Shown here: positions 54,734 through 64,000 of the stretch, in pieces
How the letters are laid out: each line of letters opens with the position of its first letter
Numbering within the stretch: the stretch's first letter is position 1
DNA from: Phycisphaerales bacterium
Lineage (GTDB): Bacteria; Planctomycetota; Phycisphaerae; Sedimentisphaerales; Anaerobacaceae
Length of the DNA: 64,000 nucleotides
Reading direction: 5' to 3'
Assembly: GCA_030602885.1 (NCBI GenBank)
Contig: JAUVYV010000003.1
Coordinates: forward strand, 1 to 64,000
The notes under the pieces: model-generated
The model's input: the letters and a program-made list of their open reading frames with translations, nothing else
What the model was told of the DNA's origin: nothing
The model's database searches: none
Made by a program: the position numbers and the translations under genes

Positions 54734-55699
54734 ATGAAAGACATTCGTGTTGCTTCAGTTCAATTCGAGCACAAACCGGCGGATAAGCGGGTGAATCTGG
54801 CCAGGATAAAGCATTTCGTCGAGCAGGCAGCAAAGCAAAAAGTCGAGATAATTGTATTCCCCGAGTGCTGCATAACGGGTTACTGGTTCCTGCGGAAGCT
54901 CTCACGCGACGAGCTGACAGAACTGGCTGAACCGGTCTTCGACGGCCCATCATCGCAGTTTCTTATGGCCCTGGCGAAAGAGCATAATATAACTATTGGG
55001 GCGGGGCTGGTCGAGAAGACCAGCGAAGGAGCGATGTTCAATGCATACGTAGTGGCAATGCCAAACGGCTGGTTTCAGCGCCACCGCAAGATTCACTGTT
55101 TCATCAGCGAGCACTTATCGTCCGGCTCGGAGTTTACGGTATTCGATACGCCCGGCGGCTGCCGGCTCGGCGTGCTGACCTGCTACGACAACAACTTAGG
55201 TGAGAACGTTCGCATCACCGCTCTGAAGGGTGCCGAGATTCTGCTGGCACCGCACCAGACCGGCGGATGCAATTCGCCAAGTCCATTTTGCATGGGGCTT
55301 GTTGATAAATCGCTCTGGGAACATCGCAAAGAAAATCCTGATGCGATAGAGGCCGAGTTCAAAGGGCCCAAGGGCCGCGAGTGGCTTTTGACCTGGCTGT
55401 GCGCCCGCGCTCACGATAACGGGCTGTTTTTGATCTTCAGCAACGGAGTAGGGGTAGATGACGATGAGATCAGAACAGGTAATGCCATGATACTGGACCC
55501 ATACGGGCGGGTGCTGGCGGAGACGTGCAAGGCCGAGGATTACATGGTCGTTGCCGACCTGGACGCGTCACTGCGTGAGAACTGCACAGGTGCCAGGTGG
55601 ATAAAGACACGTCGGCCTGAATTGTATAAGCCGTTGACTATTCCCACCGGCAGAGAACGGGATACGCGGACGGTTCGCTTCGAGGGCAAGCGGCTGTAA
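54734..55699 (+). CDS. Carbon-nitrogen hydrolase (nitrilase superfamily)
   Basis: A 321-residue amidase of the nitrilase superfamily. The catalytic triad is intact: Glu44 (VFPECCITGY), Lys119 (QRHRKIH) and Cys150 (GVLTCYDNN). The start has AGGAG nine bases upstream. Family enzymes hydrolyse carbon-nitrogen bonds of amides or carbamoyl compounds. Compared with plain family members it has an insertion after the Cys (about residues 175-210, KSLWEHRKENPDAIEAEFKG). Substrate unknown, cytoplasmic. Confidence 0.88.
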   Translation: MKDIRVASVQFEHKPADKRVNLARIKHFVEQAAKQKVEIIVFPECCITGYWFLRKLSRDELTELAEPVFDGPSSQFLMALAKEHNITIGAGLVEKTSEGAMFNAYVVAMPNGWFQRHRKIHCFISEHLSSGSEFTVFDTPGGCRLGVLTCYDNNLGENVRITALKGAEILLAPHQTGGCNSPSPFCMGLVDKSLWEHRKENPDAIEAEFKGPKGREWLLTWLCARAHDNGLFLIFSNGVGVDDDEIRTGNAMILDPYGRVLAETCKAEDYMVVADLDASLRENCTGARWIKTRRPELYKPLTIPTGRERDTRTVRFEGKRL

Positions 55700-55788: not shown

Positions 55789-56517
55789 ATGGATATGAAC
55801 AGCCCCAAGGCATTCACACTCATTGAACTGCTTGTGGTAATTGCCATAATCGGCCTGCTGATGGCCATTCTCATGCCGGCACTGAGCAGGGCTCGCGAGC
55901 ACGGCAAGCGTGCGGTCTGCCTGAGCAATCTGAGGCAGTTGACAGCCGCCTGGATTATGTACGCCGACGGAAACAGTGATAGGATTGTCAACGGCGCCCC
56001 CATCGGTGTCTCCGGCAAAGCGAGCCCGCCGAGCCCCTCCAGTTGGGACTATGAATACTGTGTAACTGAGGGCCCCAGCGCATATCTCTTTGAAGTTAAG
56101 TCGGGCCAATTGAGTAATATCGAGAACTTCCTGGCCTCGGACCAATTCCCAATGCCCGCTTGCACCGCTCAATATCAGCACGCATTCCACCGTCCCTGTC
56201 GGCAAGCAGCACCTTCTCCCGCAACCCGATACCAGACAGGCTCAGAATCCGGTACAGTATTGCAAGATACCTTTCCTTCACCTCGCCCTTGGCTTTACCC
56301 TACCCGCACATCTTCGCAGCAGCTTCTGTTATGTAAAGCCGAGTGTCACTATACTCTTTTCCCCCATTCTCCTTGCCATCTACGACTTCATCTCTGCCAC
56401 TATCTGGCGGGTAAGTGCCGATTGATTCCTGTGCGTGTCCTTAAAGGCTTGGGCGTACTCTGTGTTTGTCTTCTTGAAGAGCTCATTGCCAAGGACAATC
56501 TCCTTCAGCGCATTTGA
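55789..56517 (+). pseudogene. Type II secretion/pilin-like prepilin, interrupted after about 100 codons
   Basis: The frame opens with a perfect prepilin cleavage/methylation motif (SPKAFTLIELLVVIAIIGLLMAILMPALSRARE) and continues CLSNLRQLTAAWIMYADGNSDRIVNGAP, typical of planctomycete DUF1559-like pseudopilins. After about residue 100 (near 56090-56110) the normal globular domain stops. The frame runs on to 56517 as Pro-, Cys- and His-rich translation antisense to phage-type genes. I read this as a prepilin cut by the incoming phage-like module. A rearrangement or assembly join would look the same. Confidence 0.65.
56096..56281 (-). CDS. Small ORF at the edge of the phage-like module
   Basis: A 61-residue frame starting at GTG with AAGGGCGAG upstream. 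The first half is amphipathic (KERYLAILYRILSLSGIGLREKVLL), and the rest is basic and glycine-rich. No family recognised. It follows the module lipoprotein in the same direction and its stop coincides with the point where the prepilin frame breaks. It may be the last gene of the module or a fragment. Confidence 0.3.
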   Translation of the reverse strand: MKERYLAILYRILSLSGIGLREKVLLADRDGGMRADIERCKRALGIGPRPGSSRYYSIGPT

Positions 56518-56958
56518 CTTTACCTTCGCCTCTCGCAGGAATCGAACCGCTTTTGTCCCGTACACGCCACCCAGAAGCGCACAAACACCTATCCCCAGCT
56601 CAATCGCAGCATCAGCAACCTCCCACGCATCAGGCCGCTCGCTCGCATCACTTGTCGCCGTCCTCGCAAGCTGCACATTCGATTCGCTCAACACATCCTC
56701 AGCCGACTCCGCCTTTGGAAACTCTGCCGGCAAGCCGCAGTACGCCACAAACGCCCGACTCTGCAGCTCCGAAAGCTTCGTCAACTCCTGAAGCTGCTGC
56801 GAAGTAAACTCATCCTCCGCTGCCTCAGCCGCCAACGCCGCCGTGCGATTATGCACCCACGCATTTCGCTTCTGCACCTGCCCCGGCCCAAATCGCAAGC
56901 TCTCACAACCGCAGGCCAACACACACAGAACCGCAACTGTAGCTATCACCCTTCTCAT
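56380..56958 (-). CDS. Lipoprotein of the phage-like module
   Basis: A 192-residue protein. The start at 56958 is favoured by AAAGGAG six bases upstream. Signal MRRVIATVAVLCVLAC with lipobox VLAC, then a helical region (VHNRTAALAAEAAEDEFTSQQLQELTKLSELQSRAF), a hydrophobic Gly-rich segment (AIELGIGVCALLGGVYG) and a charged tail. No family recognised. By position after tail genes and a membrane coiled-coil protein it may serve in lysis or superinfection exclusion, but that is inference. Confidence 0.6.
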   Translation of the reverse strand: MRRVIATVAVLCVLACGCESLRFGPGQVQKRNAWVHNRTAALAAEAAEDEFTSQQLQELTKLSELQSRAFVAYCGLPAEFPKAESAEDVLSESNVQLARTATSDASERPDAWEVADAAIELGIGVCALLGGVYGTKAVRFLREAKVKSNALKEIVLGNELFKKTNTEYAQAFKDTHRNQSALTRQIVAEMKS

Positions 56959-57069
56959 CAGACTTCTCCTTTCCCCAAAATATTCAGAGTTGAAATGCAT
57001 CCGTTTCATTCCTTACAATACCTTTAGGCTCCGTCACGTATTCGGAATTGCTGATACCGAGGCTAAACA

Positions 57070-58164
57070 TTGGACACTGCCAGAACATTCAAACCCCGAA
57101 CCATATTGCTGTGGCGAAAAATTGCAGACCAGCCGCAAGCACAGCGAATCCTTTCCCGCTTTCCAGACGCCTCGGTCCGGCTTATAGAACATCAACGCCA
57201 CCCCACGCAACACTCGGTCCCCAGCGGCAAAGCCGTCGTCGAAGGAAAGCGAACACTGATGATAGGCCAAACCAGCTCTTTCATAGGTTGCTTCGATGGC
57301 CGGCTCGGCCACAACGTCCGCTGCTGTCCTTACTACAAACTCACCCCTCTATCGAACGGCTGTCCCTACTACTGCACATACTGCTACCTCGCGTTCGTCT
57401 ATCGAAAGTATTCCCCCTTCATCAAAATCAACATCAACTATGACACCATGTTCAAACAGATCAGAAAAGCCGCTGCTGCTTCTAATGGTATAGCAAGCTT
57501 CAACATGGGTGAGATGCTCGACAGCCTCGCCCTCGACCACATCACAAAGCTTACAACTATGCTCGTCCCCTTCTTCGGCGGATTCTCTAACGCATACCTC
57601 ATGCTCTTGACCAAGAGTTCTAACATCGACAACCTGCTCTCTGTTGAACCGAACAGGCAAACGGTCGTCTCGTGGAGCCTCAACTCCGACAAAGCCGTAA
57701 CCGACTTTGAACCAGGCACCGCAAGTCTTGACGAGCGGGTAAATGCCGCAAGACGTTGCCAACAGCATGGCTACCGAATACGCTTTCGAATTGACCCCGG
57801 CATTTTTCATGAGAACTGGAAAGATGAATACGCCGCTCTTATCGAGAAGATGTTCACTAATACCCGACCTGAGAACATTACGATCGGAATGCTAAGACTC
57901 CTGCCCGGACACGCGCGACTCGCTGCCCAAGCATATCCGCACCGTGCAAAGCAACTCCTTACAGACCCATTGCTCAAAGGCGCATCAGACAGGAAACTGC
58001 GATATCCCCCTGAAAAACGCATTGAATTCTACTCGTTCCTCATTGGCATTATAAGAAGCTTCAACCGAAACGTATCAATCAGTCTCTGCAGAGAAACACC
58101 CGATGTATGGCACGCTCTCAGAGACCGCTGCACCGCTGGCAAGTGCAACTGCATCGCATGGTGA
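57070..58164 (+). CDS. Spore-photoproduct-lyase-family radical SAM protein
   Basis: A 364-residue protein starting at TTG. The Fe-S motif CxxxCxxC is Cys98-Cys102-Cys105 (NGCPYYCTYCYLAF). The surroundings match SplB: FIKININYDTMFKQI, LLTKSSNIDNLL, SWSLNSDKAVTDFEPGTASLDERVNAARRCQQHGYRIRFRIDPGI. SplB repairs UV spore photoproduct in DNA. The cysteine that donates hydrogen in SplB (in its SCTSD segment) has no counterpart: residues 141-150 read IASFNMGEML. The C-terminus has a Cys-rich CTAGKCNC tail. It is the only plus-strand gene of the module and ends two bases from the convergent methyltransferase. Likely a nucleic-acid or protein modifying radical enzyme rather than a true lyase. Confidence 0.75.
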   Translation: MDTARTFKPRTILLWRKIADQPQAQRILSRFPDASVRLIEHQRHPTQHSVPSGKAVVEGKRTLMIGQTSSFIGCFDGRLGHNVRCCPYYKLTPLSNGCPYYCTYCYLAFVYRKYSPFIKININYDTMFKQIRKAAAASNGIASFNMGEMLDSLALDHITKLTTMLVPFFGGFSNAYLMLLTKSSNIDNLLSVEPNRQTVVSWSLNSDKAVTDFEPGTASLDERVNAARRCQQHGYRIRFRIDPGIFHENWKDEYAALIEKMFTNTRPENITIGMLRLLPGHARLAAQAYPHRAKQLLTDPLLKGASDRKLRYPPEKRIEFYSFLIGIIRSFNRNVSISLCRETPDVWHALRDRCTAGKCNCIAW

Positions 58165-58166
58165 CT

Positions 58167-59066
58167 TTATGCTGCATGACTTATTTCGTTCTGTGATTTC
58201 TGTGGACTGTACAAGCAGTGGTAGTATGAATACGATCGCACAGAAGTCTCGCCTCGTTCAGGATATACTTCCTGCACAAGCTCTGCCTGCTTAACAGGTT
58301 CGCCAATTACCCTGCCTATCCGTCGCATGAGTTGCTCTCGATACTTGTCCTGAAGAATAAGAACTTGCCCTTTGGTGTTACACAGCCCTTCAACAAGTCT
58401 CAATCCTCGCTTTAGGCCATCAACCCCTTCGCTTTCATGCAGGGGTCTGACAACATAGGATAACAGAACAATGTCATACTTACCCTGGTTCGACGCAATG
58501 CGGTTCAACTGACCAATGTTATCCGGGAACTGTCTCTGAACCTGCAAAATCCGTCCTGCTTCAAGATTCCTGCTGCGCTGGATAAGTTTGAAGTAGTTCT
58601 CCAACATACGCCGTCCAGTCCCCAAACTCAGACCGCACGTGTCATTCAGGATACAGTCAACTTTCACAGACCTTTGCGTCGTATACCCATATGTGCCAAG
58701 TAGCGCAGCAACCATGTCGATAATTGCCAGCGAACCAACAGCCGGGCCACACCCAACGTCCAGTATCCGCACTGCCCCTCTTGCCATGACATCAGTAAAT
58801 TCATCGGATGAGATGTATCCCATCAGGCTATTCTGAACCTGGAAGTAATGCCTAGAAAAAAAAGTGGCAAGAAACGCTCGCATTCCTGCCGGTGTTGTCG
58901 GATATAGTGTCTCAGTCTCTGAAACGTCTCTCTTCGGCAACCGCAACATCGCCCGACGCAACATAGTTCTGACCGGTTCAGACAACCTGAAGACGTCTCC
59001 AGGACATAACCGTTTGGATATGTTATTCGACCCACTCTCCCACATCATAAACCTCTGCGAATCCAT
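58167..59066 (-). CDS. Class I SAM-dependent methyltransferase
   Basis: A 299-residue protein with a Rossmann methyltransferase core. Motif I is RILDVGCGPAVGSLAI (residues about 100-115); an acidic second strand (VDCILNDTCG) and YDIVLLSYVVRPLHES follow. The N-terminal 90 residues are helical. No DNA-methylase DPPY motif is seen, so an RNA, protein or small-molecule target is more likely. I prefer the ATG at 59066 to the TTG at 59075. It follows the module's membrane coiled-coil gene by 31 bases, on the same strand as the tail genes, and is tail-to-tail with the radical SAM gene. Confidence 0.75.
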   Translation of the reverse strand: MDSQRFMMWESGSNNISKRLCPGDVFRLSEPVRTMLRRAMLRLPKRDVSETETLYPTTPAGMRAFLATFFSRHYFQVQNSLMGYISSDEFTDVMARGAVRILDVGCGPAVGSLAIIDMVAALLGTYGYTTQRSVKVDCILNDTCGLSLGTGRRMLENYFKLIQRSRNLEAGRILQVQRQFPDNIGQLNRIASNQGKYDIVLLSYVVRPLHESEGVDGLKRGLRLVEGLCNTKGQVLILQDKYREQLMRRIGRVIGEPVKQAELVQEVYPERGETSVRSYSYYHCLYSPQKSQNEISHAA

Positions 59067-59097
59067 TAACAACAAACTTATGAACTGCGAGCGACCG

Positions 59098-59385
59098 TCA
59101 GTTGCTCATCGCAGAACCTGTAATATCAGCACCCGGCACTTGTCGCTCTATCGCTCGCAAGCGATATTCAAAGCTGATGCTTCTCTCCTGTACCGTCCCC
59201 AGCTTTGATTGAAACTCCTTCTGGCATTGGATAAGCTGAGTGACATCCCGCTGCAATAAATCGAGCTGTCTTTGCAAATTGACCCAGCTTCCCACAATCA
59301 GCGATGCTAAGAATACAAGCTGGATAAGCACCGACAGATTCACCGTCCGATTCAGCCGCCAGCCCTTGCCGTTCTCTTCTGCCAT
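59098..59385 (-). CDS. Single-pass membrane coiled-coil protein of the phage-like module
   Basis: A 95-residue protein with one hydrophobic helix (about residues 15-35, LSVLIQLVFLASLIVGSWV). A coiled coil follows (LQRQLDLLQRDVTQLIQCQKEFQSKL...RLRAIERQV). The ribosome-binding site is AGGGGGG. Small proteins of this build often sit behind tail genes in phages, as holin accessories or spanin-like parts; that role here is inferred from position. Confidence 0.6.
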   Translation of the reverse strand: MAEENGKGWRLNRTVNLSVLIQLVFLASLIVGSWVNLQRQLDLLQRDVTQLIQCQKEFQSKLGTVQERSISFEYRLRAIERQVPGADITGSAMSN

Positions 59386-59400: not shown

Positions 59401-59724
59401 TTACACCGGCGCATAGAAAACATTCCTGTCCCCCACGCGGTGCATCACCACGTATGTCCCCGAAGCCAATTGTCCGGCCTGCAGAAAATCCTCCGCCAGA
59501 TTCACCGCCTCCATCTCGTCCCCAATCTCATCCGGCAGCATCCCCGGCCCGCCTATCGTAACCGCACGAACGTTATAGACATTGTACGCAAAATTGCCTT
59601 CAACCTTAACCGCCCAGGCCACTGCCATCCCACCTGGTGAGACAAGCATCGACACCTCCTTCGGCCCCGCATCGCCGGCCCTCGCCAGCCGCTCCAATAC
59701 CTGCTGCTTCTCAAAATCGCTCAT
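59401..59724 (-). CDS. Small conserved-looking phage-module protein
   Basis: A 107-residue soluble protein (MSDFEKQQVLERLARAG...). It begins with an amphipathic helix and continues as a beta-rich part with GGPGMLPDEIGDEMEAVNLAEDF and a C-terminal TYVVMHRVGDRNVFYAPV. Its ATG overlaps the stop of the large tail gene (ATGA), so the two are co-translated. No family recognised; probably a tail or chaperone-type part. Confidence 0.6.
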   Translation of the reverse strand: MSDFEKQQVLERLARAGDAGPKEVSMLVSPGGMAVAWAVKVEGNFAYNVYNVRAVTIGGPGMLPDEIGDEMEAVNLAEDFLQAGQLASGTYVVMHRVGDRNVFYAPV

Positions 59725-61556
59725 ACATCCACCCTTCGCCTGCGAACCACACGCAGTTCTGTCAACTGCCGCTCAAAATCCATCCGAACACGCTCAACAC
59801 AGCAGATGCTCCGATTGTCGCTGCGAACACTCAACACGTCCCTGCTCTCGCAACTCGCACTGACAATGTCCCCAACGTCAAAGCCAATACACAGATAAGG
59901 CGTCTGCAGGTCCGTGCGCTCAATCACCGCAGCCCCCGCCAGTGCCAGCCGCCTCACATACCCATACAGAGCATCTGCGTCATCAACCTCATCTGCATCG
60001 CCCGGTGGCTCGTACGTATTTGCAAAGATGCTCTCCCCCGTCACCTCACGATACTTAAACCGCCTCGGCAGCGTGACAATACTGTCAACCACCGGCACCG
60101 TCGAACCAACCGGCCCGTCCGCAACCACACAGTTCAGCCGTTCGTCGCTCACCACCGAAGCCGTCATCCGCAGCCGCAGCACCCCCTTCAACGCCGCCAC
60201 CCACACATACGGATCAAGCCTGTCACTACTCAGCCATATCCCGCATTCGTCAAGTAACATGTTAAACGCAAATGGATAAGGCCACCAGTGCTGCCCGTCG
60301 TTGTACGAAATCTCCAGATAGTACCCCAGCGACTTGCCCGCACTGTCACGCGTCAACGCAGGCCAAAACCGCCTCCGCCTGTGAACATACTCGCTTGTCC
60401 CGAATATCTTCGAAAAGTCAAACGGCTCACCCTGATTGTACGGCTCATTTGTGTAATCTGCCGCCTCGTTCAAACACCACTTGCGGTAAACATCCTTTAT
60501 CTGAACAAAATCAGGATTCGTCGAAGGACTAAACTGGTCATAGTCCCAGCTCTCCAGGCCTGGGTCCCACGCCTTGACCAGATCAAACGTCGCCTCAAAA
60601 ACCTTGTAATCCCCCTGTCCGATATAGCGATGTGTCGCCGGCCAAAAATCTCGCTCACTTTCCAGCTTAAATATGTTCGTCTTCGATATACTAAACTGCT
60701 CACCACGCCCCTGCAAGTCAAGTTCAACCTCTCTGCCTCGACCCACCCTGTACAAGACTATTCGCTCCTCAGGCCCCGTCTCACACAACCGCGGCACGAA
60801 CTTAAATTCCAGCCCCGCCCGTTCGCAGCACCGCCGCAACGCTTCAAGAATACTCAGCCCCGTAACATCAAGGTCCCGAACCTCCTGGTCCTCAGTCAAA
60901 GCTCGCAACTGCCCGACTCCCGGCAACCCCAACTGCCCTGCCGGCACATACTCACTAAGCAGGTAATGAATAACGTCCGCATAGCTCCACCGCATCACGC
61001 CCAAGCCGCCGGCTGCAAAAAGCCGCACGCTGCTGCCGTTGTGCTCGACGATCTCAACTGTCGCGTTGCACTCGCCGTTCTCATTGAAAACCGTATCCGC
61101 ACCAGCCAAAAAAACAATCCGCCCGTCAACGTCACACACCCACCGCCCATACACGATGACACGCTCCAACACCGCACTAAAGTCCCTGGCTATGACTTCC
61201 ACAAACTCACCGTCAGGCCCAATCTTAGTCTCAACTCTCTCCACGTGACCGGCAAATATCGGCAAGCTGTGCGCCGATGCACCCGGGAAAGTCCCGTTGT
61301 AAACAACTCCTATCCGAACCCGACTGCCAATCGCTATCTTACGCTCAATCTCCTCGGGCGACGCCGATTCGCCTTGCGGGTATGACGAGCAATTGCACGC
61401 CAGCCTTGCTTGACTAAACTCCCCCCACCCGCCGCGAACAACCTCCACTACCTCTAAGCACGGACACAATACCCCCTCAACATAAACACAAACCCTCCCA
61501 GCCGGAACGGCAGGCCTCTCTTGAGACGGCTGAAAAAAATCAACTCTGTTCGACAT
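59721..61556 (-). CDS. Phage tail/baseplate-hub-like protein
   Basis: A 611-residue protein. The first 150 residues resemble the gpD/gp27 hub fold of contractile tails: RVRIGVVYNG, PIFAGHVERVETKIGPDGEFVEVIARDFSAVLERVIVYGRW. The middle contains LSILEALRRCCERAGLEFKFVPRL, as in late-control D proteins that define the tail-tube base. The C-terminal 250 residues are beta-rich and of unknown family. It is followed with an ATGA overlap by the 107-residue gene. The assignment rests on fold-pattern recognition and needs a profile search. Confidence 0.55.
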   Translation of the reverse strand: MSNRVDFFQPSQERPAVPAGRVCVYVEGVLCPCLEVVEVVRGGWGEFSQARLACNCSSYPQGESASPEEIERKIAIGSRVRIGVVYNGTFPGASAHSLPIFAGHVERVETKIGPDGEFVEVIARDFSAVLERVIVYGRWVCDVDGRIVFLAGADTVFNENGECNATVEIVEHNGSSVRLFAAGGLGVMRWSYADVIHYLLSEYVPAGQLGLPGVGQLRALTEDQEVRDLDVTGLSILEALRRCCERAGLEFKFVPRLCETGPEERIVLYRVGRGREVELDLQGRGEQFSISKTNIFKLESERDFWPATHRYIGQGDYKVFEATFDLVKAWDPGLESWDYDQFSPSTNPDFVQIKDVYRKWCLNEAADYTNEPYNQGEPFDFSKIFGTSEYVHRRRRFWPALTRDSAGKSLGYYLEISYNDGQHWWPYPFAFNMLLDECGIWLSSDRLDPYVWVAALKGVLRLRMTASVVSDERLNCVVADGPVGSTVPVVDSIVTLPRRFKYREVTGESIFANTYEPPGDADEVDDADALYGYVRRLALAGAAVIERTDLQTPYLCIGFDVGDIVSASCESRDVLSVRSDNRSICCVERVRMDFERQLTELRVVRRRRVDV

Positions 61557-61574
61557 GATAAAACCTACCTGATC

Positions 61575-62267
61575 TCAAACTGCTTGAACATCAAGAATTT
61601 CAATCTCTGACGGGCTTCTCTCATCAAGTTCGACCGTCACTTGCAACGGTGAACCATCGACAATCCCGTCGACGTCCTCTGCCTGCACGGCAAACAAATA
61701 CCTGCCTGCATCAAGCGCATTACTGTCAAAGCCGTAGAACCTTCGCCCTCTGTACGCAATCACAGCGATAGGATTCTCATAATCGATTTGCCCCGTCCCC
61801 CCGTCACCGTAAACCTTAAAACGCACCGGCCGCATCTCTTGGTTAATCGGACAATACCACCAGACAAACCGAACCCGATTCCCGTCCACTTGCTCTGCGT
61901 TAACTTCAAAAACGCTGTTCGGCTTCAGGGCAGCTAACGCACCATCCGCACCTATCGGGACCTTCACCGCCGCCGATAGAGTCCGCTCTATCTGCCCGCA
62001 GCAGTTCGCACGCCGCATAACATAAAAATACGTAGTGTCACTCTCATGCAGCATATAATCAGGAACAGTCATCTCGCTCGCATCCACATCAGCAACAGCT
62101 AGCACATCGTCAAAGTCAACAGAATCCATGCCGGCCCCGCGATACAGAAGACAGCAGCCGTTCACCCTCGACCAGAACCACCCCAACGAAAGCACAGTCC
62201 CAAGCTTATACCCGTTCGCCGTCTGCCCGGCAAACAACGCCTCTTTCAACCACAACCGCTCCATCAA
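61575..62267 (-). CDS. Phage-module structural protein with a fibronectin-III-like part
   Basis: A 230-residue protein. The centre (DTTYFYVMRRANCCGQIERTLSAAVKV) and the C-terminal half (RYLFAVQAEDVDGIVDGSPLQVTVELDERSP) have the strand pattern of fibronectin type III or similar beta-sandwich domains of tail proteins. Its ATG overlaps the stop of the beta-helix gene (ATGA). Probably part of the tail tip or fibre. Confidence 0.5.
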   Translation of the reverse strand: MMERLWLKEALFAGQTANGYKLGTVLSLGWFWSRVNGCCLLYRGAGMDSVDFDDVLAVADVDASEMTVPDYMLHESDTTYFYVMRRANCCGQIERTLSAAVKVPIGADGALAALKPNSVFEVNAEQVDGNRVRFVWWYCPINQEMRPVRFKVYGDGGTGQIDYENPIAVIAYRGRRFYGFDSNALDAGRYLFAVQAEDVDGIVDGSPLQVTVELDERSPSEIEILDVQAV

Positions 62268-63379
62268 CTCGGCGTCCTCGTAATGCTTGATTCACCCTCG
62301 GCAGGCGTATGTGTCAATATCACTGTCTCACCGTCGTCATCGTAATACTCAATTGCACCGCTAAGCTTGTCCTGCACCGCCTTGTTCACTAACATCTTCG
62401 CCGCCTTATCAAGACCGATTTCTGTCAACTCCCCCTTGATACCCTCCGACCAGCCATCCCCGCCCTGAGTTATCGTCCCGCTAACTGTCTCGTAGCTGCA
62501 CCCCGACACCACAATCTTCCCGTTGACCTGCCATAAGTCAAAAGGCCCGAAACTCGGACTGCCCGACGACGCCGAATACACCGAGCAGTTCTTTAGCACC
62601 GCAGCAGCGTTTGTGCCGTAACTATAAATACCACCAACTGGCCCTGTGTGATTTGAACCCGCCGAGACATCAAATACGCAGTTTGTGAACACAGCCCGCG
62701 CATTATTTGACAGATACACAGCGAGCAGGAATTGGTCAGAAACATCATTACGCTTGGCAAGAAAAACGCAGTTCAGAAAACTTCCTCTGCCGATCCCGTA
62801 AACGGCTCTACAGGGACTACTTGTGGCGTATGTGCCCAGGCCCTGAAAAATGCAGTTTTCGGCGACAATGCCCTCGGCTGAACCGGCATTCCACCCGTCG
62901 TACTTGCCACGAACCCTGCTGTTGCGCAAAAAGACGTGCTTAGCACTATTGGCGTATAACCCATCGTATGCCCCGTAGATGTCACAATCCTCAATGACGA
63001 TATTTTCCTTCGCCAAGAAGCTGATGCCCTTGGCGTTAGTCGCCAAAGCCTCGACGGCGAGGTTCCTGACAACACAGTCATTTGCCAGTGACAATGCATC
63101 TCCCGCAGCCGGGATAATCTTCGACTTGTTTCGATGAGTCCCTATAAATGTTAACGCCTTACTGCCGGCGCTAACGTTCTCGGCATAGTCGCCGGGCCAG
63201 ATGATAATTGTGTCCCCGGAAGACACAGCCGACACAGCCGCGCCAATCGTCAGCTTCGCGTCATTGCCTAAGTTGACCGGATATTGCCCCGCATGACCGT
63301 TGTTGGCATCACTGCCTGCCTTTGAAACGTGCCACACCCTGCTCGAATCATTTAAATAAATCATCCTCATGTCCCTCAT
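62264..63379 (-). CDS. Right-handed beta-helix (tailspike-like) protein
   Basis: A 371-residue protein. It opens with WHVSKAGSDANNGHAGQYPVNL, the usual entry to parallel beta-helix proteins, and continues in about ten coils with regular N, C and V ladders (VVRNLAVEAL / IVIEDCDIYGAYDGLYANS / VFLRNSRVRGKYDGWNAGS / IVAENCIFQGLG). A non-helical tail of 60 residues follows. Such proteins serve as phage tailspikes that bind or cut surface polysaccharide; similar folds occur in chromosomal pectate lyases, but the neighbours favour a phage role. ATG at 63379 or 63364. Confidence 0.65.
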   Translation of the reverse strand: MRDMRMIYLNDSSRVWHVSKAGSDANNGHAGQYPVNLGNDAKLTIGAAVSAVSSGDTIIIWPGDYAENVSAGSKALTFIGTHRNKSKIIPAAGDALSLANDCVVRNLAVEALATNAKGISFLAKENIVIEDCDIYGAYDGLYANSAKHVFLRNSRVRGKYDGWNAGSAEGIVAENCIFQGLGTYATSSPCRAVYGIGRGSFLNCVFLAKRNDVSDQFLLAVYLSNNARAVFTNCVFDVSAGSNHTGPVGGIYSYGTNAAAVLKNCSVYSASSGSPSFGPFDLWQVNGKIVVSGCSYETVSGTITQGGDGWSEGIKGELTEIGLDKAAKMLVNKAVQDKLSGAIEYYDDDGETVILTHTPAEGESSITRTPS

Positions 63380-63415: not shown

Positions 63416-64000
63416 TTACGTCTCTTCCGTCCACGTCCCGTTCTTCGCAATTACTGCCCAGGCACCGTTACTGTCCGCCACAAGCTTAAGACAGGCACCA
63501 ATAACACTGGCCGCCTTGTACTTGCCAGCAGTCTGCCCACTATCGTCACGAATCGCCGCAGACCCGGGAGCAATTCGAAGCTCCGTTGCCGTCTGAACTG
63601 CAAAGGTAAATACCGTCCCCTCGACGGCTGAATCAGGCAAAGTAAGCGTAACCGTCCCCGTCGCCCCCAGGTTTGTATGAACACTGCCCGACTCCGAAGC
63701 CCCAAGCGTATCATCGCTCGTGTGCGCTTCTATCGCCTGCGTAATACCACCTGCCCCGTAAGGCACAGCAAAACTATGGCCCCCGCGACAATCGGTTATC
63801 GATGTTATGTCACCATTTGATGTGGTCACTATCGCAAGCCGAATATGAGGCACCTGCGCCATATCCGGAAAGCCGCTGTATTCATCTGTAATGAGATTGC
63901 CTCCCGCATCTATGTATAGATAGATGTTCGCCTTGTCATCCACTAATGTATTACCCGACGAACCGGCGCAGCTTACCAGCTCCGTTCCCAGCCAGAACGC
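63416..64000 (-). CDS. Phage tail-fibre-like protein, 5' end outside the window
   Basis: The frame stays open to the right edge (AFWLGTELVSCAGSSGNTLVDDKANIYLYIDAGG...), so the GTG at 63943 is probably internal. The repeat-like segment NIYLYIDAGGNLITDEYSGFPDMAQVPHIRLAIVTTSNGDITSITDCRGG resembles tail-fibre proteins. It continues into a small beta-sandwich (LPDSAVEGTVFTFAVQTATELRIAPG). About 195 codons are visible. It is the most upstream visible gene of the minus-strand module. Confidence 0.6.
   Translation of the reverse strand, partial: AFWLGTELVSCAGSSGNTLVDDKANIYLYIDAGGNLITDEYSGFPDMAQVPHIRLAIVTTSNGDITSITDCRGGHSFAVPYGAGGITQAIEAHTSDDTLGASESGSVHTNLGATGTVTLTLPDSAVEGTVFTFAVQTATELRIAPGSAAIRDDSGQTAGKYKAASVIGACLKLVADSNGAWAVIAKNGTWTEET

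Follow-up and report, generated by a model that had tools for sequence, protein, structure and literature searches.

A spore photoproduct lyase-like radical SAM protein and a convergent methyltransferase in a phage-derived capsid gene cluster of Phycisphaerae

Gene organization of the locus

The window analyzed here comprises the first 64,000 nucleotides of contig JAUVYV010000003.1 from a Phycisphaerales bacterium (assembly GCA_030602885.1). Close to its end, the SPLr gene (57070..58164, + strand) encodes an SPL-family radical SAM protein of 364 amino acids. SPLr opens with a TTG codon, a start that is backed by its orthologs, all of which begin with the pattern MD-x-A/S-x-x-F/Y. The SPLr stop codon ends at 58164, and the stop codon of the MT gene (58167-59075, - strand) starts at 58167 on the other strand, so that the two genes converge on a two-base gap. 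This gap is peculiar to the genome of the window, and elsewhere the two genes overlap or are separated by short gaps. MT is a class I SAM methyltransferase-like protein of 299-302 residues with an Rsm22/METTL17-like fold. The original prediction had placed a convergent class I methyltransferase two bases from SPLr and in line with tail genes, and the coordinates, the MT model and the strand of the neighboring genes all agree with it.

MT and the structural genes p95-p107-p611-p230-p371 form one line on the - strand. The p95 gene (59098..59385, -) is a core gene of the module and encodes a small membrane-anchored, coiled-coil-like protein whose architecture would suit a spanin or a holin. It is followed by p107 (59401..59724, -), p611 (59721..61556, -) and p230 (61575..62267, -). 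Both p107 and p230 are further genes of the module, and p611 encodes a large structural protein of the module that may be tail- or hub-like and that found no match in Pfam or PHROG. The p371 product (62264..63379, -) is a beta-helix protein with a weak match to a phage neck protein, and is probably a tail fibre or spike. Finally, p262 (63416..64000, continuing to contig position 64204, -) encodes a virion-like module protein. Beyond the window follow p257, p220, an SU10-type major capsid protein (MCP; 6e-87), then a scaffold and a portal of SPP1 type, with which the module closes at contig position 69413. The open reading frames of 56380-69413 include none recognized as an integrase, replication, repressor or tail-tube gene.

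On the other side of SPLr, and divergent from it, lies lipo209 (56380..57009, -), which encodes a putative lipoprotein with an LACGC lipobox identified by eye. This gene marks the end of the module and is kept even in minimal modules. Together, p95, with its membrane anchor and coiled coil, and the lipoprotein lipo209 resemble an inner/outer spanin pair, and a lysis function is possible. Two carbon-nitrogen-hydrolase-like genes (54734-55699 and G000:C17:70833-71561) flank the module in the genome of the window only, and none was seen in 20 other module stretches. The conserved order of the cluster is portal-scaffold-MCP-connector...p95-(MT)-(SPLr)-lipoprotein. At other loci, further accessory genes sit between SPLr and p95: one for a radical SAM protein (L008 11067-12029), which in this locus of genome G137 stands between SPLr and MT, and one for a DUF523-like protein (L021 11190-11648).

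Fold and cysteines of SPLr

SPLr matches the Pfam family SPL (PF20903) with an E-value of 1.4e-33 and 116.6 bits, against a cut-off of 27. Its scores of 137.7 bits with TIGR04070 and 75.2 bits with lyase_spl_fam (TIGR03886) do not reach the equivalog cut-offs of 400 and 437.55, respectively. The CxxxCxxC motif of SPLr is formed by C98, C102 and C105 (residues 98-105) and is kept in 27 of 27 orthologs; the Pfam SPL and TIGR04070 matches and the alignment thus confirm the SplB-like protein with this motif that had been predicted. Tyr104 and Tyr106, the counterparts of the relay residues Y97 and Y99 of the Bs enzyme, are present in all 27 orthologs, as are the catalytic residues of SPLr in general. 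The other invariant cysteines are Cys85, Cys230, Cys340, Cys359 and Cys361, of which Cys340, Cys359 and Cys361 are also invariant in a 44-member SPLr alignment.

A structure prediction had been proposed as a check of the assignment. The AlphaFold model of SPLr has a pLDDT of 90. Of its 364 residues, 326 can be superposed on SPL, with a Z of 35.1 at 2.6 Å, the next family reaching a Z of 15.2. According to this model, SPLr has the full-length SPL fold, including its C-terminal part. SPLr thus shares with spore photoproduct lyase (SplB; TIGR04070/PF20903; PDB 4fhc) the full-length fold, the radical SAM motif and both relay tyrosines, and its Lys182 stands where the G. thermodenitrificans enzyme (GtSPL) has K174. 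Unlike this lyase, to which it is 23% identical, SPLr has a glutamate in place of the donor cysteine (Cys140/141), its gene lies in a capsid cluster and it carries an extra CNC tail, with the invariant Cys340, Cys359 and Cys361, that has no counterpart in SPL.

In SPL, C141 gives a hydrogen atom and Y99 and Y97 relay the radical (PMC5368176, PMC3742179). The alignment of SPLr to GtSPL sets FNMGEMLD opposite FEA-A-C140-TSD, which brings Glu148 of SPLr to the donor position. A glutamate occupies this position (C141 in Bs, C140 in Gt) in all 27 SPLr orthologs and a cysteine in none; no alignment put a cysteine there, as had been anticipated from the window alone. The Gly147-Glu148 pair would resemble the usual GE motif of radical SAM proteins. 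In the lesion pocket, Leu150 replaces S142 of SPL, and Glu148 replaces C140.

The donor cysteine of the C. acetobutylicum SPL is C74, at a different position from C141 (PMC5368176). Cys85 of SPLr, invariant in 27 of 27 orthologs, lies in the stretch that corresponds to this C74. In a phmmer search, Cys85 was paired with the engineered S76C of PDB 4rh0, although the pairing shifts against sequences with the wild-type S76; from the 4rh0 mutant, we read S76 of GtSPL as the equivalent of C74 of C. acetobutylicum. Cys340 directly follows the last strand (336-339) of the predicted model, a position in the radical SAM barrel that would point to the active-site face. Cys340, Cys359 and Cys361 may serve as ligands of a metal or of a second cluster, or as hydrogen donor. 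Thus, the invariant Cys85, Cys340, Cys359 or Cys361 could act as the replacement hydrogen donor in SPLr.

SPLr might accordingly be a genuine thymine-photoproduct lyase of the spore-photoproduct type whose donor has moved to Cys85 or to the C-terminal cysteines, and which protects DNA in dormant cells or particles. The predicted full-length SPL fold with its matched C-terminal part, both relay tyrosines, the invariance of Cys85 with its pairing to S76C, and the precedent of C74 all speak for such an enzyme. We nevertheless regard it as unlikely, as the pairing of Cys85 is alignment-dependent, the family scores lie far under the equivalog cut-offs, two residues of the lesion pocket are replaced by Glu148 and Leu150, and the invariant C-terminal tail is foreign to SPL. 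The earlier claim that SPLr is not a true photoproduct lyase therefore stands in part: the missed equivalog cut-offs and the lack of a C141-type cysteine support it, but this lack alone does not rule out repair, since the C. acetobutylicum enzyme uses an alternative donor position and SPLr combines the invariant Cys85, Cys340, Cys359 and Cys361 with the whole SPL fold.

The C-terminal tail of SPLr reads CTAGKCNC, the cysteine-rich tail that had been noticed at first sight; it is common to the whole family and not special to SPLr. Almost every SPL-family paralog of the class combines a missing donor cysteine with a CNC tail. The absence of the donor cysteine together with a CxC is the normal state of the non-spore SPL clade and no marker of methyltransferase pairing. 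The forms that share both traits had been expected to make up a clade next to methyltransferases, an expectation at odds with the tree, in which both occur in paralogs outside the module. These non-spore paralogs of Phycisphaerae, such as G000:C27:16886-17608, are like SPLr in lacking the donor cysteine, in their LCxE...CNC tail and in their length. The paralog named differs in being only 34% identical to SPLr, in reading FYLGKLQDG instead of FNMGEMLDS, and in lying outside the capsid cluster and in a separate clade. It is a second SPL-family gene in the genome of the window (L001, L028). The presence of SPL-fold paralogs outside the module indicates that this type of enzyme is not tied to capsids.

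The SPLr orthologs, which are 56-69% identical (22 loci in Planctomycetota genomes, one of them in a bin labelled Verrucomicrobia), form one clade with a support of 100/99, apart from the paralogs outside the module. The only donor-cysteine forms, a full SPL-type protein of L029 and GtSPL, pair with each other; GtSPL was entered in the tree as its C140A sequence. Among phages, SPLr found only two remote matches (21-24% identity), which are not orthologs. The dN/dS of SPLr was 0.07-0.19 in the twelve closest pairs, values that point to purifying selection. Broken copies were seen in two loci, one split or shortened in L013 (10001-11092) and one likewise in L023 (10001-10642).

The methyltransferase MT and its radical SAM partners

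MT (METHYLTRANSFERASE) found no methyltransferase match in Pfam. Its model (pLDDT 88) is that of a class I methyltransferase whose best relatives are Rsm22/METTL17, with a Z of 19.3 over 246 residues, the next family reaching 15.1; the fold is also akin to that of protein N-terminal methyltransferases. MT thus shares with the mitoribosome assembly factors Rsm22/METTL17 a fold over about 246 residues. An Fe-S cluster is bound by METTL17 (PMC11046306). Unlike these factors, MT has radical SAM genes as neighbors, found no Rsm22 sequence-family match up to an E-value of 1, and has no invariant cysteine in its alignment, so that the cysteine set by which METTL17 binds its [4Fe-4S] cluster is missing. 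Recognizable DNA-methyltransferase motifs were not found in MT. Its motif region matches the N-terminal part of the PADLOC model RT_UG35 (7.9e-12), and RT_UG25 was also matched, which suggests that a related domain occurs in MT and in the RT_UG35 and RT_UG25 reverse transcriptases. Searches for MT gave no match in phages and, among viral contigs, a single one that also carries SPLr and looks like the same bacterial module. In a phylum sample with few genomes of the MT-bearing order, MT matched its own genome alone. Signs of MT decay comprise a fragment in L014 (11102-11476) and a reported in-frame stop in the G186 copy (L092 2603-3439).

Among 347 genomes of the class, SPLr is present in 16 and MT in 15. 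Both genes co-occur in eight, always close together, so that MT is near SPLr in half of the SPLr genomes; the predicted linkage of the SPL protein to a methyltransferase hence extends beyond one genome. The half of the SPLr loci without MT implies that SPLr can do without it and that joint action is not obligatory. Seven genomes have MT without SPLr, and in all of them its neighbor is another radical SAM gene, which encodes an SplB-like protein of about 370 residues with partial PA0069/Rv2578c matches (the pairs lie at L126 11852-13908, L127 15712-17798, L128 9824-11914, L129 675-2834, L130 2232-4257, L131 8104-10118 and L132 2990-4950). Six of these pairs are convergent and one is head-to-head next to lipo209; one, in G049, lies inside the capsid module and several others outside it. 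A radical SAM gene, of one family or another, is thus the neighbor of MT in all 15 of its genomes, an adjacency that would be far above chance. As MT has such a neighbor without exception, it may share the substrate or the pathway of SPLr. This repeated adjacency across families points to an unrecognized two-enzyme modification system.

The fold of MT also bears on the possibility that SPLr and MT modify a protein or peptide, such as one from the capsid or tail of the particle, in the manner of radical SAM maturases. The likeness to protein N-terminal methyltransferases would suit such a role, as would the location of SPLr among particle genes and the next-best folds to SPLr after SPL, those of the peptide-acting SuiB and PFL-activase (Z about 15). 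We hold this role to be quite improbable: the SPL fold is ahead of these by 20 Z units, a casual look beside SPLr noticed no small RiPP-like precursor gene, and most genomes that keep these capsid genes are without SPLr. The absence of SPLr from most capsid-cluster genomes also implies that particle assembly does not require it.

The capsid cluster and its possible relation to gene transfer agents

SPLr orthologs occupy the same spot of the cluster in about 20 Phycisphaerae/Sedimentisphaerales genomes. Of 22 loci, 21 have SPLr head-to-head with lipo209 and one is cut off; p611 and its neighbors are on the strand opposite SPLr in 18 of the 22. The order portal-scaffold-MCP-p220-...-p95-lipo209 recurs in 20 further module stretches. 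In nine loci (seven of the 22 SPLr loci, the window and L060), purF-purM and a membrane-protein gene flank the module. MCP is present in 145 of the 347 genomes, nearly always as one full-length copy; MCP identities lie mostly at 69-85% inside the family, at 57-77% across the order and at 53-66% across the class, and the nearest phage MCP is 32% identical. Minimal modules (L060, L066, L067, L073 and L074) hold only portal-scaffold-MCP-p220-(p95)-lipo209, without tail-like genes.

A solitary gene for the terminase large subunit, TerL, lies on another contig (L123:1240-2754 = G000:C12:8459-9973, 504 aa). It was found with a PHROG terminase profile (1.7e-17), and a search of the genome of the window with Terminase_6N (PF03237) gave no match; TerL has a GGGKT Walker A motif, identified by eye, and matches Terminase_6C (1.1e-7). 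TerL is present, mostly as a single copy, in 171 of the 347 genomes, 137 of which also carry MCP (Fisher p 2e-52, uncorrected for phylogeny). It is unlinked to the capsid cluster in the genome of the window and in complete genomes, and in a few deep lineages (G009, G019, G059 and G118) it is close by on the capsid contig.

The single copies, the identity that falls with rank, the conserved flanks and the correlated distances of module genes are strong indications that the capsid cluster is vertically inherited and domesticated throughout the class. The original prediction had taken SPLr and MT for cargo of a phage-like module, and we consider it very improbable that the pair is phage cargo in a prophage, whether decaying or ordinary. 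The portal, scaffold and capsid genes do derive from phages, but the cluster holds a fixed place beside purF-purM in many genomes, as a single copy that is intact in most of the 145; no integrase or replication genes were noticed in 56380-69413, and even the closest phage MCP is distant. That claim gives way to a capsid cluster that is probably domesticated, with SPLr as a long-term resident, half of the time without MT.

Among the 347 genomes, SPLr is restricted to two families of one order, that of the window and one other, and each of its 16 genomes has MCP or the terminase. Mantel tests of SPLr distances against lipo209, p611 and p230 gave r 0.83-0.90 (p 0.0001), nearly the level of these three genes among themselves (0.90-0.92), so by sequence distances SPLr co-diversifies with the module genes. 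From its restricted spread, the Mantel correlations and the low dN/dS, SPLr is an old, selected and accessory resident. SPLr and MT could instead be morons, a defence or host-fitness cassette in a landing site between p95 and lipo209 that has nothing to do with the particle. SPLr is indeed on the strand opposite the module, MT and the other radical SAM gene are outside the module in several genomes, other accessory genes share the gap (the radical SAM gene of L008 and the DUF523-like gene of L021), and MT matches the N-terminal part of RT_UG35. We doubt this alternative, as SPLr keeps to one site and one orientation and co-diversifies with module genes, and SPLr matched no PADLOC model. Nor did PADLOC assign a defence family to the other radical SAM proteins.

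In our proposal, which we place at even chances, SPLr belongs as a resident accessory enzyme to a phage-derived, vertically inherited capsid cluster of the whole class, one that resembles a gene transfer agent; it would act on nucleic acid, and MT on the same substrate or pathway. A [4Fe-4S] cluster on Cys98, Cys102 and Cys105 would cleave SAM, and the 5'-deoxyadenosyl radical would take a hydrogen from the substrate, in a pocket matching the dinucleotide-lesion site of SPL. As in SPL, Tyr104 and Tyr106 could pass the radical on. A C141-type cysteine would not quench the product radical; Cys85 or the Cys340/Cys359/Cys361 set may do so, or the reaction may end as a modification and not as repair. 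Our best guess for the substrate is a nucleic acid, be it DNA, whether packaged or incoming, or RNA, on which, or on whose pathway, MT would also act. The choice of donor cysteine, joint action with MT and DNA-carrying particles are parts of the proposal that we infer. A bolder version, in which Phycisphaerae have an undescribed, class-wide gene transfer agent made from the capsid cluster and the unlinked terminase, with a radical SAM/MT pair in one order that edits or repairs the particle DNA and a radical quenched by the C-terminal cysteine tail, seems to us unlikely. How an SPL-fold enzyme without the donor cysteine ends its reaction is a chemical question raised by this protein, and, if the cluster forms particles, a large uncharacterized clade of non-spore SPL proteins would gain a biological setting.

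On the criteria for gene transfer agents (viriforms) taken from PMC9662315, the head genes are of caudoviricete origin (portal, scaffold, SU10-type MCP and TerL) and the genes are spread over loci, TerL being unlinked. The capsid cluster with its unlinked terminase, as read from gene content and sequence, thus fits a class-wide gene-transfer-agent-like element. No tail-tube or tape-measure genes were recognized in it. In a literature search that covered few subscription papers, neither a gene transfer agent of planctomycetes nor an SPL protein in such an agent turned up. Should the cluster produce particles, they would represent a gene transfer agent of ancient vertical descent, with a split terminase, in a phylum for which we found none reported. 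As in the gene transfer agents BhGTA and RcGTA, the genes of the Phycisphaerae element are split over loci and no replication genes were recognized, and its capsid genes are probably vertically inherited. The terminase outside the main cluster is shared with the Brachyspira agent BhGTA, which keeps its terL there (PMC9662315). The Phycisphaerae element, a candidate agent, differs from these agents in its planctomycete lineage, its SU10-type MCP, its SPP1-type portal and its accessory radical SAM and methyltransferase genes.
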